From the NCBI RefSeq assembly GCF_027943725.1, contig NZ_AP025696.1:1-64000 (forward strand): DNA of 64,000 nt, given 5' to 3'. Numbering within the stretch: position 1 is the first letter of the stretch; each line of letters opens with the position of its first letter. The translations under genes and the position numbers were made by a program. The notes below the pieces were generated by a model. The model was given only the letters and a program-made list of their open reading frames with translations, searched no databases and was not told the DNA's origin. The stretch is from Nitrosophilus kaiyonis (GTDB lineage Bacteria > Campylobacterota > Campylobacteria > Campylobacterales > Nitratiruptoraceae). Below, piece by piece: positions 2,773 to 11,039 of this stretch.

Positions 2773-3630
2773 TTATCTCAATAATTGAAGTACTAATTGA
2801 GATTGTTGATTTGCTTGAGCTAGTATTGACATACCAGATTGCATCAAGATATTTTGTCTTGTAAATTCACTCATCTCTTTAGCAAAATCAACATTTCTAA
2901 TTCTTCCTTCTGCATCAGAAGTATTTACTCTTTGAGTTTCATTGTTTGAAATAATTTTTTCAAGCTCAATTTGAGCAGAACCAAATTTTGCAGCTTCTTT
3001 GTCAACAGCTTTTATTAATGCATCAACTACTGATACTGTATCATTTGCTTTAGTTTGTGATGTAACATCAATAGTATAAGTTGTTGTACCAATTAATACA
3101 GTTGATGCTGTAGTATCATTAGAACCTGCAGTTGCACCTGCAGTTGAAGATGTAATAGTAAGCTCTTGACCTTTTCTACCACCATAATGGATAGTAAAAG
3201 TTGTAGAAGTAGAACTACTAAATAAATTTGTACCGTTAAATTCAGTATCGCTGAAAATTTTACCTATTGCATCAACTAATTTATTGATATCTTGTTGCAA
3301 CGCTTTTTGAGAATCACTATCTACAGTGTTAGCTGCTTCAATTGATTTTGCTTTAACATCATTTAAGATATTATATATTTCACTCAAACTTCCTTGTGCA
3401 ATTTGAGCAATACTTACACCATCTTGTGCATTTCTTGTACCTTGATCTAAAGAAACTGCGTATGTTTTTAACTGATCTGCGATAAACAAACCAGCAGCAT
3501 CATCAGCAGCTCTATTGATTCTATAGCCTGTAGCTAACCTTTCCATACTTTTATTCATACTTGATTCAGTCTTTAGCAAGTTTGCATGTGTAAAGTCAGA
3601 CTGAAAGTTGTAATTGATACGAAGTGCCAT
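2773..3630 (-). CDS. flaA: Flagellin, filament subunit
   Basis: 285 residues, a compact flagellin with full D0/D1 ends and a reduced variable centre. The N-terminal signature M-A-L-R-I-N-Y-N and the block S-M-E-R-L-A-T-G-Y-R-I-N-R-A-A-D-D-A-A-G-L are conserved, as is the C-terminal end N-Q-Q-S-Q-L-V-L-Q-L-L-R. The central region (about 140-200) is very rich in Ser and Thr, many of them candidate O-glycosylation sites, which matters given the glycan genes directly upstream. It is a single copy in this window. It has a strong AGGAGGTTC ribosome site, a sigma-28 promoter at 3662-3688 and its own terminator. Confidence 0.97.
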   Translation of the reverse strand: MALRINYNFQSDFTHANLLKTESSMNKSMERLATGYRINRAADDAAGLFIADQLKTYAVSLDQGTRNAQDGVSIAQIAQGSLSEIYNILNDVKAKSIEAANTVDSDSQKALQQDINKLVDAIGKIFSDTEFNGTNLFSSSTSTTFTIHYGGRKGQELTITSSTAGATAGSNDTTASTVLIGTTTYTIDVTSQTKANDTVSVVDALIKAVDKEAAKFGSAQIELEKIISNNETQRVNTSDAEGRIRNVDFAKEMSEFTRQNILMQSGMSILAQANQQSQLVLQLLR

Positions 3631-3661: not shown

Positions 3662-3688
3662 TTATCGGAGATCCAAAAAATTTTTTTA
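3662..3688 (-). promoter_or_regulatory. Sigma-28 (FliA) promoter of flagellin
   Basis: Reading the minus strand: TAAAAAAA, 11 bases, then TCCGATAA. The enterobacterial FliA consensus is TAAAGTTT-N11-GCCGATAA, so spacing is exact and 7 of 8 bases of the -10 match. The -35 TAAA overlaps the stop codon of the upstream glycosyltransferase (3686-3688), and the -10 ends 32 bases before the flaA start codon. The same architecture recurs at 42016-42042. Confidence 0.85.
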
Positions 3689-5161
3689 GAAGATTTTCAA
3701 TTTTTTTTCTATTTTTTCTGCTTCTTTTTGGAAACCTACCTTTTTTAGGGCATCTATAAATAATAGTAAATCTGTTTTTTTTATGTTTTCAATATTTAAA
3801 TTTTTAAAATATTTAACAGATTCTAAATAATTTTTTAAATTATAGCTTGAGATTCCTGCAATCTCATTAGCTGTTTGATCTTTTTTATTTAAATTTATTG
3901 ATTTTTTTGCATATTTTAATGCTTCAAAAAAATTCTCTTTTTCTAGATAATATCTTGCAGCAAAATTAAACAAAAGATAAAACTCATGAATTTTTACTAC
4001 TTTTTTTATAAGGCTTTCTAGCTTTTGTGGAAGGTATTTTTCATATAATTTTAAAAGCAGATATGCAAAGTATCTATTCTTGCTTTTTTTCCACTCTTTT
4101 TTTATTGAGTCTAAATCTTTTTCATTTAAAATTTTGGGAAGTTTATCATCTAAAATCGTTGGAATATTTACTAATTTATCAATTACCATAGCAGTATTAT
4201 TTTTTTCATCTATGGGATTTTTTTCAAAATAATCAACAGATTTTAAAAACTCTAAATAAAATATTTTTTCATTTTTATAATCTTTTAAATTTTCATATAT
4301 ATAACCTTTCATATATAATAGATCAGGAAAATCATCTTTTTTATTAAGACCTTTATCTACATAAAAAAGTGCTTTTTTGAAATCCTCTTTTTTTATAAAA
4401 AGATCGGCTATATATACGAATATATATATACTAAAAAAATTATTTAATTTATTCTCATTCTTATCTAAAAGATTCTCTACTTCAACAATTTTATTTATTC
4501 CCTTTTCAATATATTTTTTTTCAAAACTCCCTAAAATTGCATAGGTTTGAAAAAGATAAAAAAGCTTAATAAAATACTCTTTAGAATCTTTTGGATAAAT
4601 AGAGAGATCTTTATAAATTAGTTCAAGATTTCTTTTTGCTTTTTCTATCTGTGTTTTTAAATCTTCATATCCATAATGATTTATAAATAGATCTATTGCA
4701 TAAGACTCTTTAACATTTAATACTTCATGTATATTTCCTGTCCAAAAAATATCATTTGATTTTCTATGCAAAAAAGCTTGTGTAGATATAGATTTTACAT
4801 TACCATCTTTTCCAAAATTTTTTATATAAGTTGATATAACTTTTATATTTTTACCATTATTTAGTAAAGGAAAAACTTTTCTAAATTTTTCATACTCTTC
4901 TTCTTCCAATTCAAAATCGGCATCAAAATGCCAAATCCAATCTCCTTTACATTTGCTTATAGCAAAATTTCTTGCATCAGCAAAACCATTCCATTTATGC
5001 TCATATACTTCACATCCATAACTTTTTGCAATTTCTATAGTTTTATCAGTAGAACCTGTATCTACAACAATTATTTCAACAAATTTGTCTTTTAAGCTAT
5101 CAAGCAGTCTTGGAAGATTTTTTTCTTCATTTTTAACAATAACCGCTGCTGAAATATTCAA
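3686..5161 (-). CDS. GT2 glycosyltransferase with C-terminal TPR-like repeats, probable flagellin glycosyltransferase
   Basis: 491 residues. The N-terminal GT-A domain (1-230) starts S-A-A-V-I-V-K-N-E-E and has V-D-T-G-S-T-D-K-T (33-41) and the metal-binding F-D-A-D-F (Asp80, Asp82). The remainder is alpha-helical with repeated Y-x-K-G-Y-I-Y-E-N-L and A-L-K-Y-A-K-K-S-I-N-L-N type units, which look like TPRs. GT2 plus TPR is the layout of SunS and of the GT2 protein CD0240 of the Clostridioides difficile flagellin locus, which attach sugars directly to a polypeptide. It is the last gene of the glycan operon, and the flaA promoter begins inside its stop codon. Flagellin as acceptor is an inference. 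Confidence 0.75.
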   Translation of the reverse strand: MNISAAVIVKNEEKNLPRLLDSLKDKFVEIIVVDTGSTDKTIEIAKSYGCEVYEHKWNGFADARNFAISKCKGDWIWHFDADFELEEEEYEKFRKVFPLLNNGKNIKVISTYIKNFGKDGNVKSISTQAFLHRKSNDIFWTGNIHEVLNVKESYAIDLFINHYGYEDLKTQIEKAKRNLELIYKDLSIYPKDSKEYFIKLFYLFQTYAILGSFEKKYIEKGINKIVEVENLLDKNENKLNNFFSIYIFVYIADLFIKKEDFKKALFYVDKGLNKKDDFPDLLYMKGYIYENLKDYKNEKIFYLEFLKSVDYFEKNPIDEKNNTAMVIDKLVNIPTILDDKLPKILNEKDLDSIKKEWKKSKNRYFAYLLLKLYEKYLPQKLESLIKKVVKIHEFYLLFNFAARYYLEKENFFEALKYAKKSINLNKKDQTANEIAGISSYNLKNYLESVKYFKNLNIENIKKTDLLLFIDALKKVGFQKEAEKIEKKLKIF

Positions 5162-5171
5162 AATATCAACC

Positions 5172-5969
5172 TTAAAATATTTTTTCTTTGAATTGCTCGA
5201 CTTTCTTTAAATCATCCTCTCTATATAAATGAAGAGGTGGATAATAGGTATCAGCATAAAGTTCAAATCCTAAGGCTACTGCCCTAATACAAAAATGTCT
5301 ATCTTCTCCCCAGAAGCTAAGATTATAAATTTTATCAAAAGATACTCCACAATTTATTGCTTTTTTTGAAATTAATGTACAAGCTCCTAATCCTCCGACA
5401 CGATAAATACCAGGTTTTTTTAATTTTTCTATAAAATCCAAAACAGCTTTTAATTTCTCATCTTCATTAGCTTTTATTAACTCTGCTGGAAAAAGATTAT
5501 ATTCATCACATTGCCAAACTTGTGGAAGTTCAGGACCTTCTGGCGTCCATTTTGTCCAAAATACTTCAGAAATAATATCTTTATTAGCATTTATAAGATG
5601 AGATATAAGTTTTGGATGTATAAGCAAATCTGAATCAATAAGAAAAAGATAATCAAAACTATTCTCTCTTGCAAAATTAATTATTTCATTTTTATAATTA
5701 GCTACTTTCCATATAAGCTCATCATTCCATTGATGGTTAAAATTATCGCATATATACTTATCATTAGAGTAACCTTGTTTAATTATAATGAACTCTTTGT
5801 TTTTTTTATAAAATTTTTTCAATAATTTTTTACTTTCTAACAAATCGTTATCATCAATAAAATAATAAAAAATTTCATTATTATCTTTTTCAATTTTTGA
5901 AAGAAAATATAGAAATTCTTCAAGAATTTTTGGTTTTTGTTTTATTGGAGACCCAATTAAAATTTTCAT
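5172..5969 (-). CDS. GT-A glycosyltransferase, Anp1/Mnn9-like fold
   Basis: 265 residues, cytoplasmic, no membrane segment. The order of motifs matches the bacterial relatives of the Anp1/Mnn9 mannosyltransferases: N-terminal I-G-S-P-I, then Y-L-F-L-I-D-S-D-L (Asp112-Ser-Asp114, the DXD site), a late G-G-L-G-A-C-T-L-I-S-K, and W-G-E-D-R-H-F-C-I-R-A-V-A-L-G-F (Glu222-Asp223), ending with P-L-H-L-Y-R. Donor and acceptor are not predictable. It overlaps the glycerophosphotransferase gene by 4 bases and precedes the GT2-TPR gene by 10, so all three are probably co-translated. Confidence 0.7.
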   Translation of the reverse strand: MKILIGSPIKQKPKILEEFLYFLSKIEKDNNEIFYYFIDDNDLLESKKLLKKFYKKNKEFIIIKQGYSNDKYICDNFNHQWNDELIWKVANYKNEIINFARENSFDYLFLIDSDLLIHPKLISHLINANKDIISEVFWTKWTPEGPELPQVWQCDEYNLFPAELIKANEDEKLKAVLDFIEKLKKPGIYRVGGLGACTLISKKAINCGVSFDKIYNLSFWGEDRHFCIRAVALGFELYADTYYPPLHLYREDDLKKVEQFKEKIF

Positions 5970-7090
5970 ATATTTTCCTCACTCAAAATCATTTCTATTT
6001 TCACACAACTATTAGGCATATTAAATCTTTTATAAAAATCTACATCTATATATTTTTCGGATTTTTTAATTCCTTTTAATAATTCATCTAATTCTTTAAA
6101 TATTCCAAAGTTTTTAAATATTTTAAAATAATCAAAATAAAACCCTCTTATCTTTTCATACTCTTTTAAATCATAAGGATACAATAATATTGGGCGCTTT
6201 AAAATTGAATAATCAAAAATTAAAGAAGAGTAATCTGATATTAATATATCACTTATAAGTAAAAGTTCTTGAACATCATTATAATTACTTACATTTATTA
6301 TATTATTAGAATCTATTTTACCAATATTATCCAAAGAAAGAGGATGAAGTCTTAATAAAAGAAAATAGTTTGGATATTTTTTTTCAAAATTTTCTATTAT
6401 TTTAATAATTTTTTCTTTTTCATTATAGTACCCCTCTTTATCTCTAAATGTAGGTGCATATAAAACTATTTTTGAAAATTTTTTTGAATTATTGCCTAAA
6501 ATTTTCTTTTTTAAATTTGATAAAAACTCTATATCTTGACCTTTATTAAATAAAATATCATTTCTTGGTAAACCAGTTACAAGAAGTTGCTCATTTCTAA
6601 AGTGACAACAACTTGTAAATGGTTTTTTTATATTTTCATGAGCTATACAAAACTTATCCCATTTTTCCCATGGAAGAGCTACTTTTTTATTTTCAAAATC
6701 ATCTATCCATTTTTTATCTATTAAACTGTCAAATCCCATTTTTTTTAAAGGAGTACCGTGCCATAAATTGATTACTTGGGTTTGTTCATTTTTAAACATA
6801 AAGATATCATCAATATCATGAGTTATAAAATAATATTTTGCTTTTAAAAAATATTTTATACTATTTAAATCATTAGCAAAAATAACTGGATATATATCTT
6901 TGTATCTCTCATATTCATTTAAATCTTTTAATACATAATAAACTTTCTTTTGAGTATTATATAAATAGTGCAAAAAAAGATATTTTGTGTTTTCACTAAA
7001 TTTTCCAGATCTTGTACTAAACAGATACAGATCTTCATCTATTTGGGAATTTATATATCTTTTAACAATTTTTTCTATTTTTCTGTTCAT
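5966..7090 (-). CDS. CDP-glycerol glycerophosphotransferase family protein (TagB/TagF-like)
   Basis: 374 residues, which corresponds to the catalytic part of the family without an N-terminal glycosyltransferase. Characteristic motifs are present: L-W-H-G-T-P-L-K-K-M-G (110-119), V-T-G-L-P-R-N-D (171-178), Y-A-P-T-F-R-D (211-217), R-L-H-P (247-250) and I-S-D-Y-S-S-L-I-F-D-Y (284-294). The family transfers glycerol phosphate from CDP-glycerol onto a sugar or a growing poly(glycerol phosphate). It is adjacent to the gene making CDP-glycerol (4-base overlap). In Gram-positives this serves wall teichoic acid; here the likely acceptor is the glycan built by the two neighbouring glycosyltransferases. 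Confidence 0.88.
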   Translation of the reverse strand: MNRKIEKIVKRYINSQIDEDLYLFSTRSGKFSENTKYLFLHYLYNTQKKVYYVLKDLNEYERYKDIYPVIFANDLNSIKYFLKAKYYFITHDIDDIFMFKNEQTQVINLWHGTPLKKMGFDSLIDKKWIDDFENKKVALPWEKWDKFCIAHENIKKPFTSCCHFRNEQLLVTGLPRNDILFNKGQDIEFLSNLKKKILGNNSKKFSKIVLYAPTFRDKEGYYNEKEKIIKIIENFEKKYPNYFLLLRLHPLSLDNIGKIDSNNIINVSNYNDVQELLLISDILISDYSSLIFDYSILKRPILLYPYDLKEYEKIRGFYFDYFKIFKNFGIFKELDELLKGIKKSEKYIDVDFYKRFNMPNSCVKIEMILSEENI

Positions 7091-7545
7091 TTAAACTCTT
7101 CTACTATTTTTTTCAATACTTCAATAGATTCTTGAACTTTTGAAATATCAATATCAATAAGATATTTCAATTTATTTTTTAATTCTGTTGATGAAACATC
7201 TTTTGTTCTATCTAAATATATAACATCACAAAAATCTTTTAAAAAATCAAATTTTCCACTCCAATCATCACCCATAACCAATATATCAATTTTATATTTT
7301 TTAATATCTTCAATTTTTTGATCCCAACTTTTTTCTGGAATTACTTTATCTACATATTGAATTGATTTAACAATCTCTACTCTATCCTTATATGGAATAA
7401 ATGAAAATTTTCCTTTTATTGCATTAAATTCATCAGTAGATACTCCAACTATCAACTCATCTCCTAAACTTTTTGCTCTTTTTAAAAGATTTAAATGACC
7501 TATATGGAACAGATCAAAAGTACCATATGTAATAACTCTTTTCAT
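7087..7545 (-). CDS. tagD: Glycerol-3-phosphate cytidylyltransferase (TagD type)
   Basis: 152 residues. The cytidylyltransferase makes CDP-glycerol from CTP and sn-glycerol 3-phosphate. The N-terminal G-T-F-D-L-F-H-I-G-H (8-17) contains the nucleotide-binding HxGH, and V-M-G-D-D-W (about 91-96) plus R-T-K-D-V-S-S-T near the C-terminus correspond to the GDDW and RTxGISTT motifs. The C-terminal 25 residues form an extra helix. It supplies the donor for the overlapping TagB/F-like gene. A relative that uses another polyol phosphate cannot be excluded, but glycerol fits the partner gene. Confidence 0.88.
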   Translation of the reverse strand: MKRVITYGTFDLFHIGHLNLLKRAKSLGDELIVGVSTDEFNAIKGKFSFIPYKDRVEIVKSIQYVDKVIPEKSWDQKIEDIKKYKIDILVMGDDWSGKFDFLKDFCDVIYLDRTKDVSSTELKNKLKYLIDIDISKVQESIEVLKKIVEEFK

Positions 7546-7553
7546 ATCATATC

Positions 7554-8681
7554 CTAAAGAGATTTTTTTAAAAAATTTACTATTCTTAAACTTGCTTTAC
7601 CATCCCCATATGGATTATTTGCCATATAAAAAATTTTTCTATTTTTTATAATTTTCTCTGCCTCTCTTACAATATCTTCTTTCTTTGTTCCAACTAATTT
7701 TACAAAGCCAGTTTCTAAAGCTTCAGGCCTTTCTGTAGTTTCTCTCATTAACAATACTGGTTTTTTCAAACTTGGAGCTTCTTCTTGAATACCTCCACTA
7801 TCAGTAAGAATCATAAAACTTTTACTCATAAGATAAACAAATTCCGGATAATCTAAAGGTTTTAATAAATAGACATTTTTTATATCTTTTAAAATTTTAT
7901 TTACAGGATTTTGAACATTTGGATTAAGATGTACAGGATATAAAATATTTATATTTTTATTTTTTAAAGCAATCTCTTTTATTGCATTACATATATTTTG
8001 AAATCCTCTACCAAAATTTTCTCTTCTATGTCCAGTTACTAAAATAAATTTTGATTTTAATACATCCTTTGGAATCTGTATAAAAAGGTTTGATTCAATC
8101 CTTTTTTTAAAATTTTTATCTTTCTCAATTTTATTTAAAATCATTAAAAGAGCATCAACTACACTATTTCCAGTTACTATTATATTCTCTTTTTTAATTC
8201 CTTCATTGATTAAATTTTCTTTTGCCTTTTTGGTAGGTGCAAAATGATATTTTGTCAAAATAGATGTCAATCTTCTATTTGCCTCTTCTGGCCAAGGAGA
8301 ATAGATATTATATGTTCTTAAACCAGCTTCTACATGAGCTACATCAATTTTTTTATAAAAGCCAGCAAGTGTTACAGCAAATGTTGTAGTTGTATCACCA
8401 TGTACAATAACTAAGTCTGGTTCAAACTCATTTAAAATATCTTTCATTTTTATTAAAATATTAGATGTTATGTCATACAGATCTTGATCTTGTTTCATGA
8501 TATCTAAATCATAATCAGCTTTTATATTAAAAATTTTTAATACATTATCAAGCATTTCTCTATGCTGAGCTGTAATACATACCTTAACAATAAATTCATC
8601 ATTTTTATTAAGCTCTTTAATTATAGGAGCCAATTTTATAGCTTCTGGTCTTGTACCAAATGTTACTAAGATTTTTTTCAT
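7554..8681 (-). CDS. wecB: UDP-N-acetylglucosamine 2-epimerase (non-hydrolysing)
   Basis: 375 residues, full length for the WecB/MnaA family. It interconverts UDP-GlcNAc and UDP-ManNAc. Seen: G-T-R-P-E-A-I-K-L-A-P (8-18), V-H-G-D-T-T-T-T (about 93-100), V-E-A-G-L-R-T, W-P-E-E-A-N-R-R, V-T-G-H-R-R-E-N-F and L-T-D-S-G-G-I-Q-E-E. It is first in the five-gene minus-strand operon wecB-tagD-tagB/F-GT-GT2. MnaA, TagD and TagB together are the enzymes that build the ManNAc-glycerol-phosphate linkage unit in Bacillus wall teichoic acid, so the set hints at a ManNAc-phosphoglycerol product. The GGAA ribosome site is weak. Confidence 0.93.
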   Translation of the reverse strand: MKKILVTFGTRPEAIKLAPIIKELNKNDEFIVKVCITAQHREMLDNVLKIFNIKADYDLDIMKQDQDLYDITSNILIKMKDILNEFEPDLVIVHGDTTTTFAVTLAGFYKKIDVAHVEAGLRTYNIYSPWPEEANRRLTSILTKYHFAPTKKAKENLINEGIKKENIIVTGNSVVDALLMILNKIEKDKNFKKRIESNLFIQIPKDVLKSKFILVTGHRRENFGRGFQNICNAIKEIALKNKNINILYPVHLNPNVQNPVNKILKDIKNVYLLKPLDYPEFVYLMSKSFMILTDSGGIQEEAPSLKKPVLLMRETTERPEALETGFVKLVGTKKEDIVREAEKIIKNRKIFYMANNPYGDGKASLRIVNFLKKSL

Positions 8682-8755: not shown

Positions 8756-9964
8756 ATGCAAAAATTTTCTGCATGCATAATTGATATAAATAATCAGGAT
8801 ATTAAAAAAACTCTTGAATCTTTAGAAGAAAACAAAGATTATATATCAGAAATTATTTGCACTGGATCAAATAAAGAGTATGATAATATTAAATATTTAA
8901 ATATAAATTCCAAAAATGAAGCGATCCATAGAAATGCATGTTTGAAAGAAGCAAAAAGTGAATATATTTTGTGGCTTGCACCAAATATTGAACTTGAAGA
9001 TGAAACTTTAGAAGAGTTTAATGAAATTTTAGAAGAGTATGAAAATATTGATATCATATATCCAAATGAAGTGTTCATTGATGAAAATGAAGAGGAGAAT
9101 ATAAAAAATTTTAATGACTGGTATAAAAAAAATGATCAACTTATACAATCATTAACATTAGAAGATTATATACCAAATTTTGGTGTTGTTACTAAAAAAT
9201 CAAAATTTTTAAATATTGGGGGATTTGAAGACAAATATAACGATTATTGTTTTTATGCAACTATTTATAAAAATATTAAAAATATTAATTTTAAACATTC
9301 AGATTTGAGCTTTATAAATCACTATATTTATGAAAGTTTCATTGATACGTCATATAGAAGTAAACTTCTAAGAGATATCTTAGAGATCTACAATTTAAAA
9401 GAGATATTTAATAATTTAAATTGGGAAAATGAAAACATTGCTATAGCTACTGCTTATACAATAATTGGAGATAAACTTTTTAACTATTATGATTATTTAA
9501 ATGCCTCAAATTTTTATAGAAAAGCTCTTATAAGCTTTCATAATCAAGAAACATTAAGAAAATTAATAGAAACTTATTACCAAATGGGACTTTTTGATGA
9601 AGCACTAAAATTATTAGAAACTCAAGATGCAAATGAAAATATCAAAAAAGAGTTTATAGAAAAAATAGAAAATACAAAAAAGCTTATTCAAGAAATTGAA
9701 AAATCAGTTGAAGAAGGAAAAGCAGCGCAAATTTTAATATCAGCAAATGATATAACATCATTTTATCAAGGAGCTCCGATATATAATATTTTAGGAGTAG
9801 TATTTTTTATAAAAGCAGATCTTGAAAATGCATACAGGTTTTTTTATAAGGCTGCAACAATGAATCCTTTAGATAATGATATAATAAATAATCTTATTGA
9901 TATTGCTAAAAAACTTGGATATGAAGATGATGTAATAGGCCTTTTTGATAGATTGACTAAATAA
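8756..9964 (+). CDS. Glycosyltransferase-like TPR protein with degraded active site
   Basis: 402 residues. The N-terminus (1-190) follows a GT2 fold: A-C-I-I-D-I-N-N, then S-E-I-I-C-T-G-S-N and Y-I-L-W-L-A-P-N-I-E-L-E-D-E (70-83). In the neighbouring active-looking enzyme the equivalent segment is W-H-F-D-A-D-F; here the metal-binding D-A-D is P-N-I (76-78), so catalysis is doubtful. The C-terminal half (about 240-400) has TPR-like helices, including A-Y-R-F-F-Y-K-A-A-T-M-N-P-L. It is first in a plus-strand operon with flagellar genes, 10 bases before the PilZ gene. It may be a non-catalytic partner of the flagellin glycosyltransferase or a scaffold. Confidence 0.65.
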   Translation: MQKFSACIIDINNQDIKKTLESLEENKDYISEIICTGSNKEYDNIKYLNINSKNEAIHRNACLKEAKSEYILWLAPNIELEDETLEEFNEILEEYENIDIIYPNEVFIDENEEENIKNFNDWYKKNDQLIQSLTLEDYIPNFGVVTKKSKFLNIGGFEDKYNDYCFYATIYKNIKNINFKHSDLSFINHYIYESFIDTSYRSKLLRDILEIYNLKEIFNNLNWENENIAIATAYTIIGDKLFNYYDYLNASNFYRKALISFHNQETLRKLIETYYQMGLFDEALKLLETQDANENIKKEFIEKIENTKKLIQEIEKSVEEGKAAQILISANDITSFYQGAPIYNILGVVFFIKADLENAYRFFYKAATMNPLDNDIINNLIDIAKKLGYEDDVIGLFDRLTK

Positions 9965-9974
9965 AGGATAAGTT

Positions 9975-11039
9975 TTGACTGAAACATTATCAAGATTTGA
10001 AACATTGAAATTAGCAGCACAGCACTGGACTCAAACAGATCTGACTTCTATATTGATTATAGTATTTTTTATATTAGGAGTTATGATCATACTTGTCGGC
10101 GGAATACTTTTACAAAAATTTTTAAAATCAAAAAATGTCCACAGCTATTTTTTTAATTACGCCAAAGAGAAAGGTTTAACAAACGAAGAAGCAAAATTAC
10201 TTTGGGATTATTCTCAAAAAATGGGAAGAGATCCTCTTTTGGTTCTTGAATTCAAATCTCCATTTGAAAAAGTAGTTGATCTTTATATTAAAACTGACCC
10301 AAATCCAAAAGAAAATCTTGTACAAGATATGAGAAAAAAACTAGGATTTAATATTGTCTATAATTTTATTCCTTTGATGCTATCTAAAGATATAGAGATG
10401 TTTCAGAATGGCAAATTGATATTAAATGGTAAGCAAGCTTTTGATACTGCTTTATATGACAAAGATGAAAAATTTATGTATTGGTTATTGATAGATATAA
10501 AAAGTAGAGAAGGAATTGAACCAGGCGCTCCAGTTAAAATAACATTTTTAAGAAGGGGAGATGCAATATATAACTTTGAATCAACAATAGTAGATGTTAT
10601 ACAAGAAGGACATAATATTGTAATAAAAATTCCACATACTTTTGAAATGAATAGAATACAAAGAAGAGAATTTCCTAGAATAGAAACAGATCTTCCAGCT
10701 ATGGTAGGTATAACAAAAATTGTCGATGGAAATGAAGAAATTATTTGGCATACTGGGAGAATTCTTGATATTAGTGCCAGTGGTGCAAAATTTTGTGTTC
10801 CTGTTGAGGAAAAAAATAGTATAAAATTTTCAATAGGTGAAAATATATTGGTTAAATTTGAACTAAATGGTGAAAAATATGAAATAGAGGCAAACGTTGA
10901 AAATAAAGATGAAAGAGAAATCTCCTTATGTTATGGATTGAAATTTAAAAATATTAAAGACAAGGTAAAAGATAAAATATTTGAATATGTACAAAAAGAG
11001 CAAAGAAAAATGGCTAAACTTGCTAGGATGCAAAAATAG
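9975..11039 (+). CDS. Membrane-anchored PilZ-domain c-di-GMP receptor
   Basis: 354 residues. One membrane helix (about 25-47) is followed by a cytoplasmic linker, a YcgR-N-like beta domain (about 140-225) and a PilZ domain (226-330). The c-di-GMP motifs are intact: R230-R-E-F-P-R235 and D265-I-S-A-S-G270. The start is a TTG preceded by AAAGGATAAG. YcgR-like proteins slow or redirect the flagellar motor when c-di-GMP is high; a diguanylate cyclase lies three genes downstream in the same operon. The next gene begins one base after the stop. Confidence 0.85.
   Translation: MTETLSRFETLKLAAQHWTQTDLTSILIIVFFILGVMIILVGGILLQKFLKSKNVHSYFFNYAKEKGLTNEEAKLLWDYSQKMGRDPLLVLEFKSPFEKVVDLYIKTDPNPKENLVQDMRKKLGFNIVYNFIPLMLSKDIEMFQNGKLILNGKQAFDTALYDKDEKFMYWLLIDIKSREGIEPGAPVKITFLRRGDAIYNFESTIVDVIQEGHNIVIKIPHTFEMNRIQRREFPRIETDLPAMVGITKIVDGNEEIIWHTGRILDISASGAKFCVPVEEKNSIKFSIGENILVKFELNGEKYEIEANVENKDEREISLCYGLKFKNIKDKVKDKIFEYVQKEQRKMAKLARMQK

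Follow-up and report, generated by a model that had tools for sequence, protein, structure and literature searches.

Among the closest described systems to the locus considered here is the type A flagellin locus of C. difficile (cd0240-cd0244), where a PF04464-like enzyme serves to link a modification to flagellin through a phosphodiester: in the model for that system, FliC receives a HexNAc from a glycosyltransferase, and the PF04464-like enzyme attaches a phospho-alcohol that a cytidylyltransferase has activated, the group added being N-methylphosphothreonine (PMC10714395). Among Gram-negative bacteria, tagB and tagD adjoin flagellar genes in VR1 of the enterobacterial flag-2 system and are read by the authors as genes for a teichoic-like flagellin glycan; in the accessible part of that source this is a prediction, made for another phylum and another flagellar system, and neither a GT-A gene nor slot exchange is described there (PMC6993521). 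One Geobacillus flagellin island has tagD together with pgs (PMC5109656), and the glycosyltransferase (GT) domain of GmaR is known to place GlcNAc on flagellin (PMC9638930).

We analysed a window comprising 64,000 nucleotides of the Nitrosophilus kaiyonis genome (1.77 Mb, single contig), in which five genes likely constitute a flagellin-modification cassette that occupies an exchange slot at flaA and makes a HexNAc-ManNAc-glycerol phosphate product. The first-pass annotation had described these genes as overlapping or lying within 10 bases of one another and as ending within the flaA promoter, and both the coordinates and the family profile matches bear this out: five co-directional minus-strand genes span 3686-8681 (Table 1), with an 8-base gap between wecB and tagD, 4-base overlaps of the TagB/F-like gene with tagD on one side and the GT-A gene on the other, a 10-base gap between the GT-A and GT2-TPR genes, and 55 bases from GT2-TPR to flaA, which is followed by flaG, fliD and fliS. 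The stop codon of the GT2-TPR gene (3686-3688) falls inside the -35 TAAA element (3685-3688) of the flaA promoter. Because a promoter of the same type lies at about -58 in 13 of the 16 flaA genes of the family, whatever gene precedes it, we regard this overlap as the normal architecture of the slot and not as a property of the cassette. The flagellin itself carries 25 Ser/Thr within residues 141-205.

Table 1. Features of the flaA region and the grounds for each assignment.
Feature	Position	Strand	Evidence
wecB/mnaA, UDP-GlcNAc 2-epimerase (UDP-ManNAc supply)	7554..8681	-	TIGR00236
tagD, glycerol-3-phosphate cytidylyltransferase (CDP-glycerol supply)	7087..7545	-	TIGR01518; matches to solved TagD proteins
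TagB/F-like CDP-glycerol glycerophosphotransferase, single domain, 374 aa	5966..7090	-	PF04464; alignment with TagF 3l7i
GT-A fold glycosyltransferase, DSD intact; proposed second-sugar (ManNAc) transferase	5172..5969	-	AlphaFold, Foldseek, motifs of relatives
GT2-TPR protein glycosyltransferase; proposed first-HexNAc transferase on FlaA	3686..5161	-	likeness to GmaR/SunS; DAD motif; presence in two slot types
sigma-28-like flaA promoter, TAAA-N15-TCCGATAA	3659..3688	-	-35 contains the GT2-TPR stop codon
flaA flagellin, proposed acceptor	2773..3630	-	Flagellin_N and Flagellin_C; composition
Divergent GT2-like and TPR-like protein, DxD absent in homologues read	8756..9964	+	weak PF00535/TPR matches; flanks the slot in most relatives

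The two supply enzymes are assigned at the level of function. WecB scores 487 bits against TIGR00236 (cut-off 210), the model for MnaA UDP-GlcNAc 2-epimerase, and TagD scores 175.8 bits against TIGR01518 (cut-off 165.4), the model for glycerol-3-phosphate cytidylyltransferase, aligning over its full length with TagD of B. subtilis and with another solved TagD. The TagB/F-like protein belongs clearly to PF04464 (224 bits; cut-off 22), with TarF as its best named family and the polymerase TagF as its best solved relative; its H111 and H249 align with H444 and H584 of TagF (3l7i), residues that differ in solved TagF variants. Since it falls far below the cut-offs that define TarB (104 bits against 500), the TagB/TarB primase, and TarF (161 against 550), its acceptor, and even the alditol that it transfers, could differ from theirs.

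Of the two putative sugar transferases, the GT2-TPR protein matches PF00535 (92.7 bits) along with weak TPRs, retains an intact DAD motif, and has GmaR as its best solved relative, followed by SunS. The GT-A protein gives only weak matches to named families (Anp1 and GT2, just below the cut-off) and nothing significant in a sequence search against the PDB. Its predicted structure is nonetheless a confident GT-A fold (AlphaFold pLDDT 93), for which Foldseek ranks the collagen galactosyltransferase COLGALT1 first, followed by LH3, yeast Mnn9, and the teichoic acid transferases TarP and TarS, and the DSD and WGEDRH motifs are nearly invariant among its relatives.

At the scale of the whole genome, the island contains the sole PF04464 gene, the sole gene passing the TagD cut-off, and the only intact close homologue of wecB. 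A second wecB-family match near 979930 carries stops and sits in a PglB N-glycosylation locus (L169:4817-5589; about 979.8-980.6 kb); the island wecB may cover for this broken epimerase, so that WecB could also serve the N-glycan locus. Searches of the entire genome returned no NeuB (PF03102), no Maf (PF01973), no LicD, and no member of the WecG/TagA family (PF03808), to which the ManNAc transferase TagA belongs. The earlier remark that no pseudaminic or legionaminic acid genes are seen in the window consequently extends, for NeuB, to the genome as a whole, and we reject modification of flagellin with these sugars on the absence of NeuB and Maf. The parallel that the first-pass annotation drew with the wall teichoic acid linkage unit (made with MnaA, TagD, TagA and TagB) stands in part: it holds for MnaA and TagD at the equivalog level and for the TagB/F-family transferase, but fails at TagA, as well as for the Gram-positive wall and for the proposed acceptor, which is a protein. 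Because the WecG/TagA family is missing, a ManNAc transfer step must use the GT-A protein or some other enzyme.

An established flagellin transferase of Campylobacterota is Maf, and a comparison of flaA neighbourhoods across the family places it in the position that the island takes here. The space between flaA and the divergent GT2-like gene (beyond which lies pilZ) acts as a slot with four alternative contents: Maf (G001-G005 and G020); a GT2-TPR gene with a protein of ~630 aa that has a GT2 domain (G006, G008, G010, G012, G013, G014, and probably G016, where it meets a contig edge); the five-gene island (the window genome and G018); or nothing at all (G007 and G009). This census covers genomes with a readable slot, and hence leaves out G011, G015, G017, G019 and G021. 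Maf occurs in 7 of the 22 family genomes, and all six genomes with NeuB are among those seven (one-sided Fisher p about 9e-5, calculated by hand with kinship between genomes ignored), while both are absent from the window genome and G018. The enzymes of the island are unrelated to those of the Maf system, and alternation with Maf at a single site speaks strongly for flagellin as the island's target. The island shows both marks of a flagellin cassette, namely a kept linkage to flagellin and a swap with other flagellin glycosylation genes at one site. The GT2-TPR gene occurs in two of the four types of slot, and in the GT2-TPR tree the copy from G018 falls with one from the type encoding the ~630-aa protein (support 99/96); we infer from this that the GT2-TPR protein may be the initiating transferase in both, with different modules fitted to it.

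The island and flaA recur in the same six-gene order on a contig (C94) of G018, a metagenome-assembled genome (MAG) from another genus, Nitratiruptor, with 42-76% identity between the five pairs of island proteins; this recurrence argues that the packing of the genes is not due to chance. These two are the Campylobacterota genomes in which we found the island. A wider spread in the phylum is not borne out by a GT-A profile search of a 397-genome Campylobacterota sample, to which the MAG does not belong and in which the window genome is the sole match. FlaA of N. kaiyonis is 88% identical to that of Nitratiruptor and 78% to that of its own genus, and the divergent gene likewise is closer to Nitratiruptor (65% versus 51%), whereas PilZ (9975-11039; 49% versus 77%) and FlaG (2298-2672; 54% versus 75%) are closer to their own genus. 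These identities fit a block replacement of flaA, cassette and divergent gene from a Nitratiruptor-like donor, which we treat as suggestive because, in a tree test, placing the divergent gene with the one copy from its own genus is not rejected (AU p 0.073).

Across the species set of GTDB, the GT-A profile identifies 79 loci, nearly all of them in Bacillota, and in the GT-A tree both Campylobacterota proteins form one clade (100/100) amid Bacillota relatives. Most of those relatives do not adjoin flagellin, with flagellar loci making up 10 of the 78 outside Campylobacterota. Of the 5 loci with PF04464, 4 are flagellar (Fisher p 0.0007), as are all 3 with tagD (p 0.0016), both values being calculated over these 78 loci, which are not independent of one another. 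Three flagellin loci encode a single protein uniting GT-A with PF04464, with tagD next to it: L106 in Saccharibacillus, L137 in Thermosyntropha lipolytica, and L099 in a Clostridiales MAG, where wecB is present too. In Defluviitalea (L091), a GT2-TPR gene and a separate PF04464 gene precede flaG-fliD-fliS. The three fusion loci share with the window a GT2-TPR protein, a GT-A protein of the same family (50-54% identity), a PF04464 domain, TagD (58-67%), and linkage to flaA or flaG-fliD-fliS, but join in one protein what the window encodes in separate genes. Identity between their PF04464 domains and that of the window is only about 28-30%, which leaves a single inherited origin of the window gene with the fusions unsupported and suggests that the pairing of GT-A with PF04464 was assembled more than once. 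A GT-A domain is also found without PF04464 at six further Bacillota flagellin loci (L092, L110, L114, L135, L138 and L157), several of which encode large fusions of GT-A with methyltransferase or with GT2 and TPR domains; these loci may represent a wider family of GT-A based flagellin modification.

From the genes, their families and conserved catalytic motifs, from gene order and exchange at the slot, from the fusions seen in other phyla, and from the absence of the alternative enzymes, we infer a substrate, a number and identity of sugars, an order of steps, and an extracellular effect. WecB would make UDP-ManNAc and TagD CDP-glycerol. The GT2-TPR protein, acting like GmaR, would draw on a nucleotide sugar to place the first HexNAc on Ser/Thr of cytoplasmic FlaA, which its TPRs would bind; the GT-A protein would add a second sugar, most likely ManNAc; and the TagB/F-like protein would transfer glycerol phosphate from CDP-glycerol to that second sugar as a cap. 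The product would be an O-linked glycan (HexNAc-ManNAc-glycerol phosphate) resembling the wall teichoic acid linkage, formed directly on the protein without a lipid carrier. We hold with high confidence that flagellin is the target of the cassette and, given that target, consider glycerol phosphate a well-favored candidate for the transferred group. Which of the two sugar transferases acts first is tentatively assigned, and their order could be reversed since the GT-A protein most resembles the protein-acting COLGALT1. The idea from the first-pass annotation that flagellin is decorated through CDP-glycerol chemistry survives as a prediction well supported by genomic evidence: the exchange slot at flaA, the absence of Maf and NeuB, the fusions at Bacillota flagellin loci, and the alignment of H111 and H249 with the TagF histidines.

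The same cassette could modify flagellin with its PF04464 enzyme moving some other phospho-alcohol in place of glycerol phosphate, as the C. difficile type A locus brings to mind: its PF04464-like CD0244 is proposed to be a phosphothreonine transferase (PMC10714395), its pairing of a GT2-type flagellin glycosyltransferase with a PF04464-like phosphotransferase is found in the window as well, and the TagB/F-like protein lies under both the TarB and the TarF cut-offs. We consider this unlikely given that the neighboring TagD exceeds the glycerol-3-phosphate cytidylyltransferase cut-off and matches the B. subtilis enzyme from end to end, and that the island has no counterpart of either the HAD-like CD0241 or the CD0243 methyltransferase; conversely, a TagD equivalog, WecB and a GT-A protein are not described for C. 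difficile type A. It is very unlikely that the glycan on flagellin is extended by repeated glycerol phosphate units into a teichoic-acid-like polymer and does not end in the single cap proposed above. The kinship of the TagB/F-like protein with TarF and TagF would be in keeping with a polymer, but the genome's PF04464 gene is single and short, and the bulk added to each subunit would presumably be large for a packed filament.

A different objection concerns the target, in that the five genes might act on a surface polysaccharide or an N-glycan and have come to lie at flaA by chance insertion. The broken epimerase of the window genome's PglB locus is in line with this, as are a teichoic-like capsule in C. 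jejuni HS1 (PMC7901785) and three loci in family genomes (L054 in G012, L055 in G009 and L056 in G007) that have tagD, a wecB-family gene, and CDP-alcohol transferase or LicD genes near a PglB-like ORF. Against these points, placement at flaA is kept in two genera, Maf replaces the island in the very same slot, and PF04464 and tagD accompany each other in fusions at Bacillota flagellin loci, all of which makes a chance insertion quite unlikely. The three tagD glycan loci raise the possibility that Nitratiruptor decorates its N-glycans with a phospho-alditol.

We know of no phosphoglycerol, as a negatively charged, non-sialic flagellar decoration, in Campylobacterota. A literature search of partial coverage returned no report of chemically shown glycerol phosphate on flagellin, of such a locus in Campylobacterota, or of flagellin modification in Nitratiruptor. 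The earlier statement that the modification is undescribed in this phylum agrees with that search as far as the locus goes, but the idea has precedents in flag-2 tagB/tagD (PMC6993521) and C. difficile type A (PMC10714395). If our reading is correct, flagella of a Gram-negative vent lineage bear phosphoglycerol in the Gram-positive style, and the flaA slot offers a natural experiment in which similar flagellins (mostly 75-88% identical) are served by different modification enzymes, so that effects of the modification on assembly, motility, phage escape or surface charge can be addressed directly. A GT-A gene that adjoins PF04464 or is joined to it, together with tagD, at flaA would also serve as a signature for detecting this chemistry in Bacillota that can be cultured. 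A broader account is possible, although we would not call it probable: that a HexNAc-ManNAc-glycerol phosphate is built on flagellin without a lipid carrier by a cassette that was assembled more than once (in Campylobacterota, Paenibacillaceae and Clostridia) and swapped with nonulosonic-acid cassettes at the flaA slot, perhaps taking the flagellin gene with it.

The divergent GT2/TPR-like gene that bounds the slot has homologues at L053, L068, L070, L071, L073, L077 and L079. It accompanies short flagellins (about 285-310 aa) and is missing from G002, G007 and G009, whose flagellins are long (503-528 aa); its product may act alongside the short flagellin as a non-catalytic partner.
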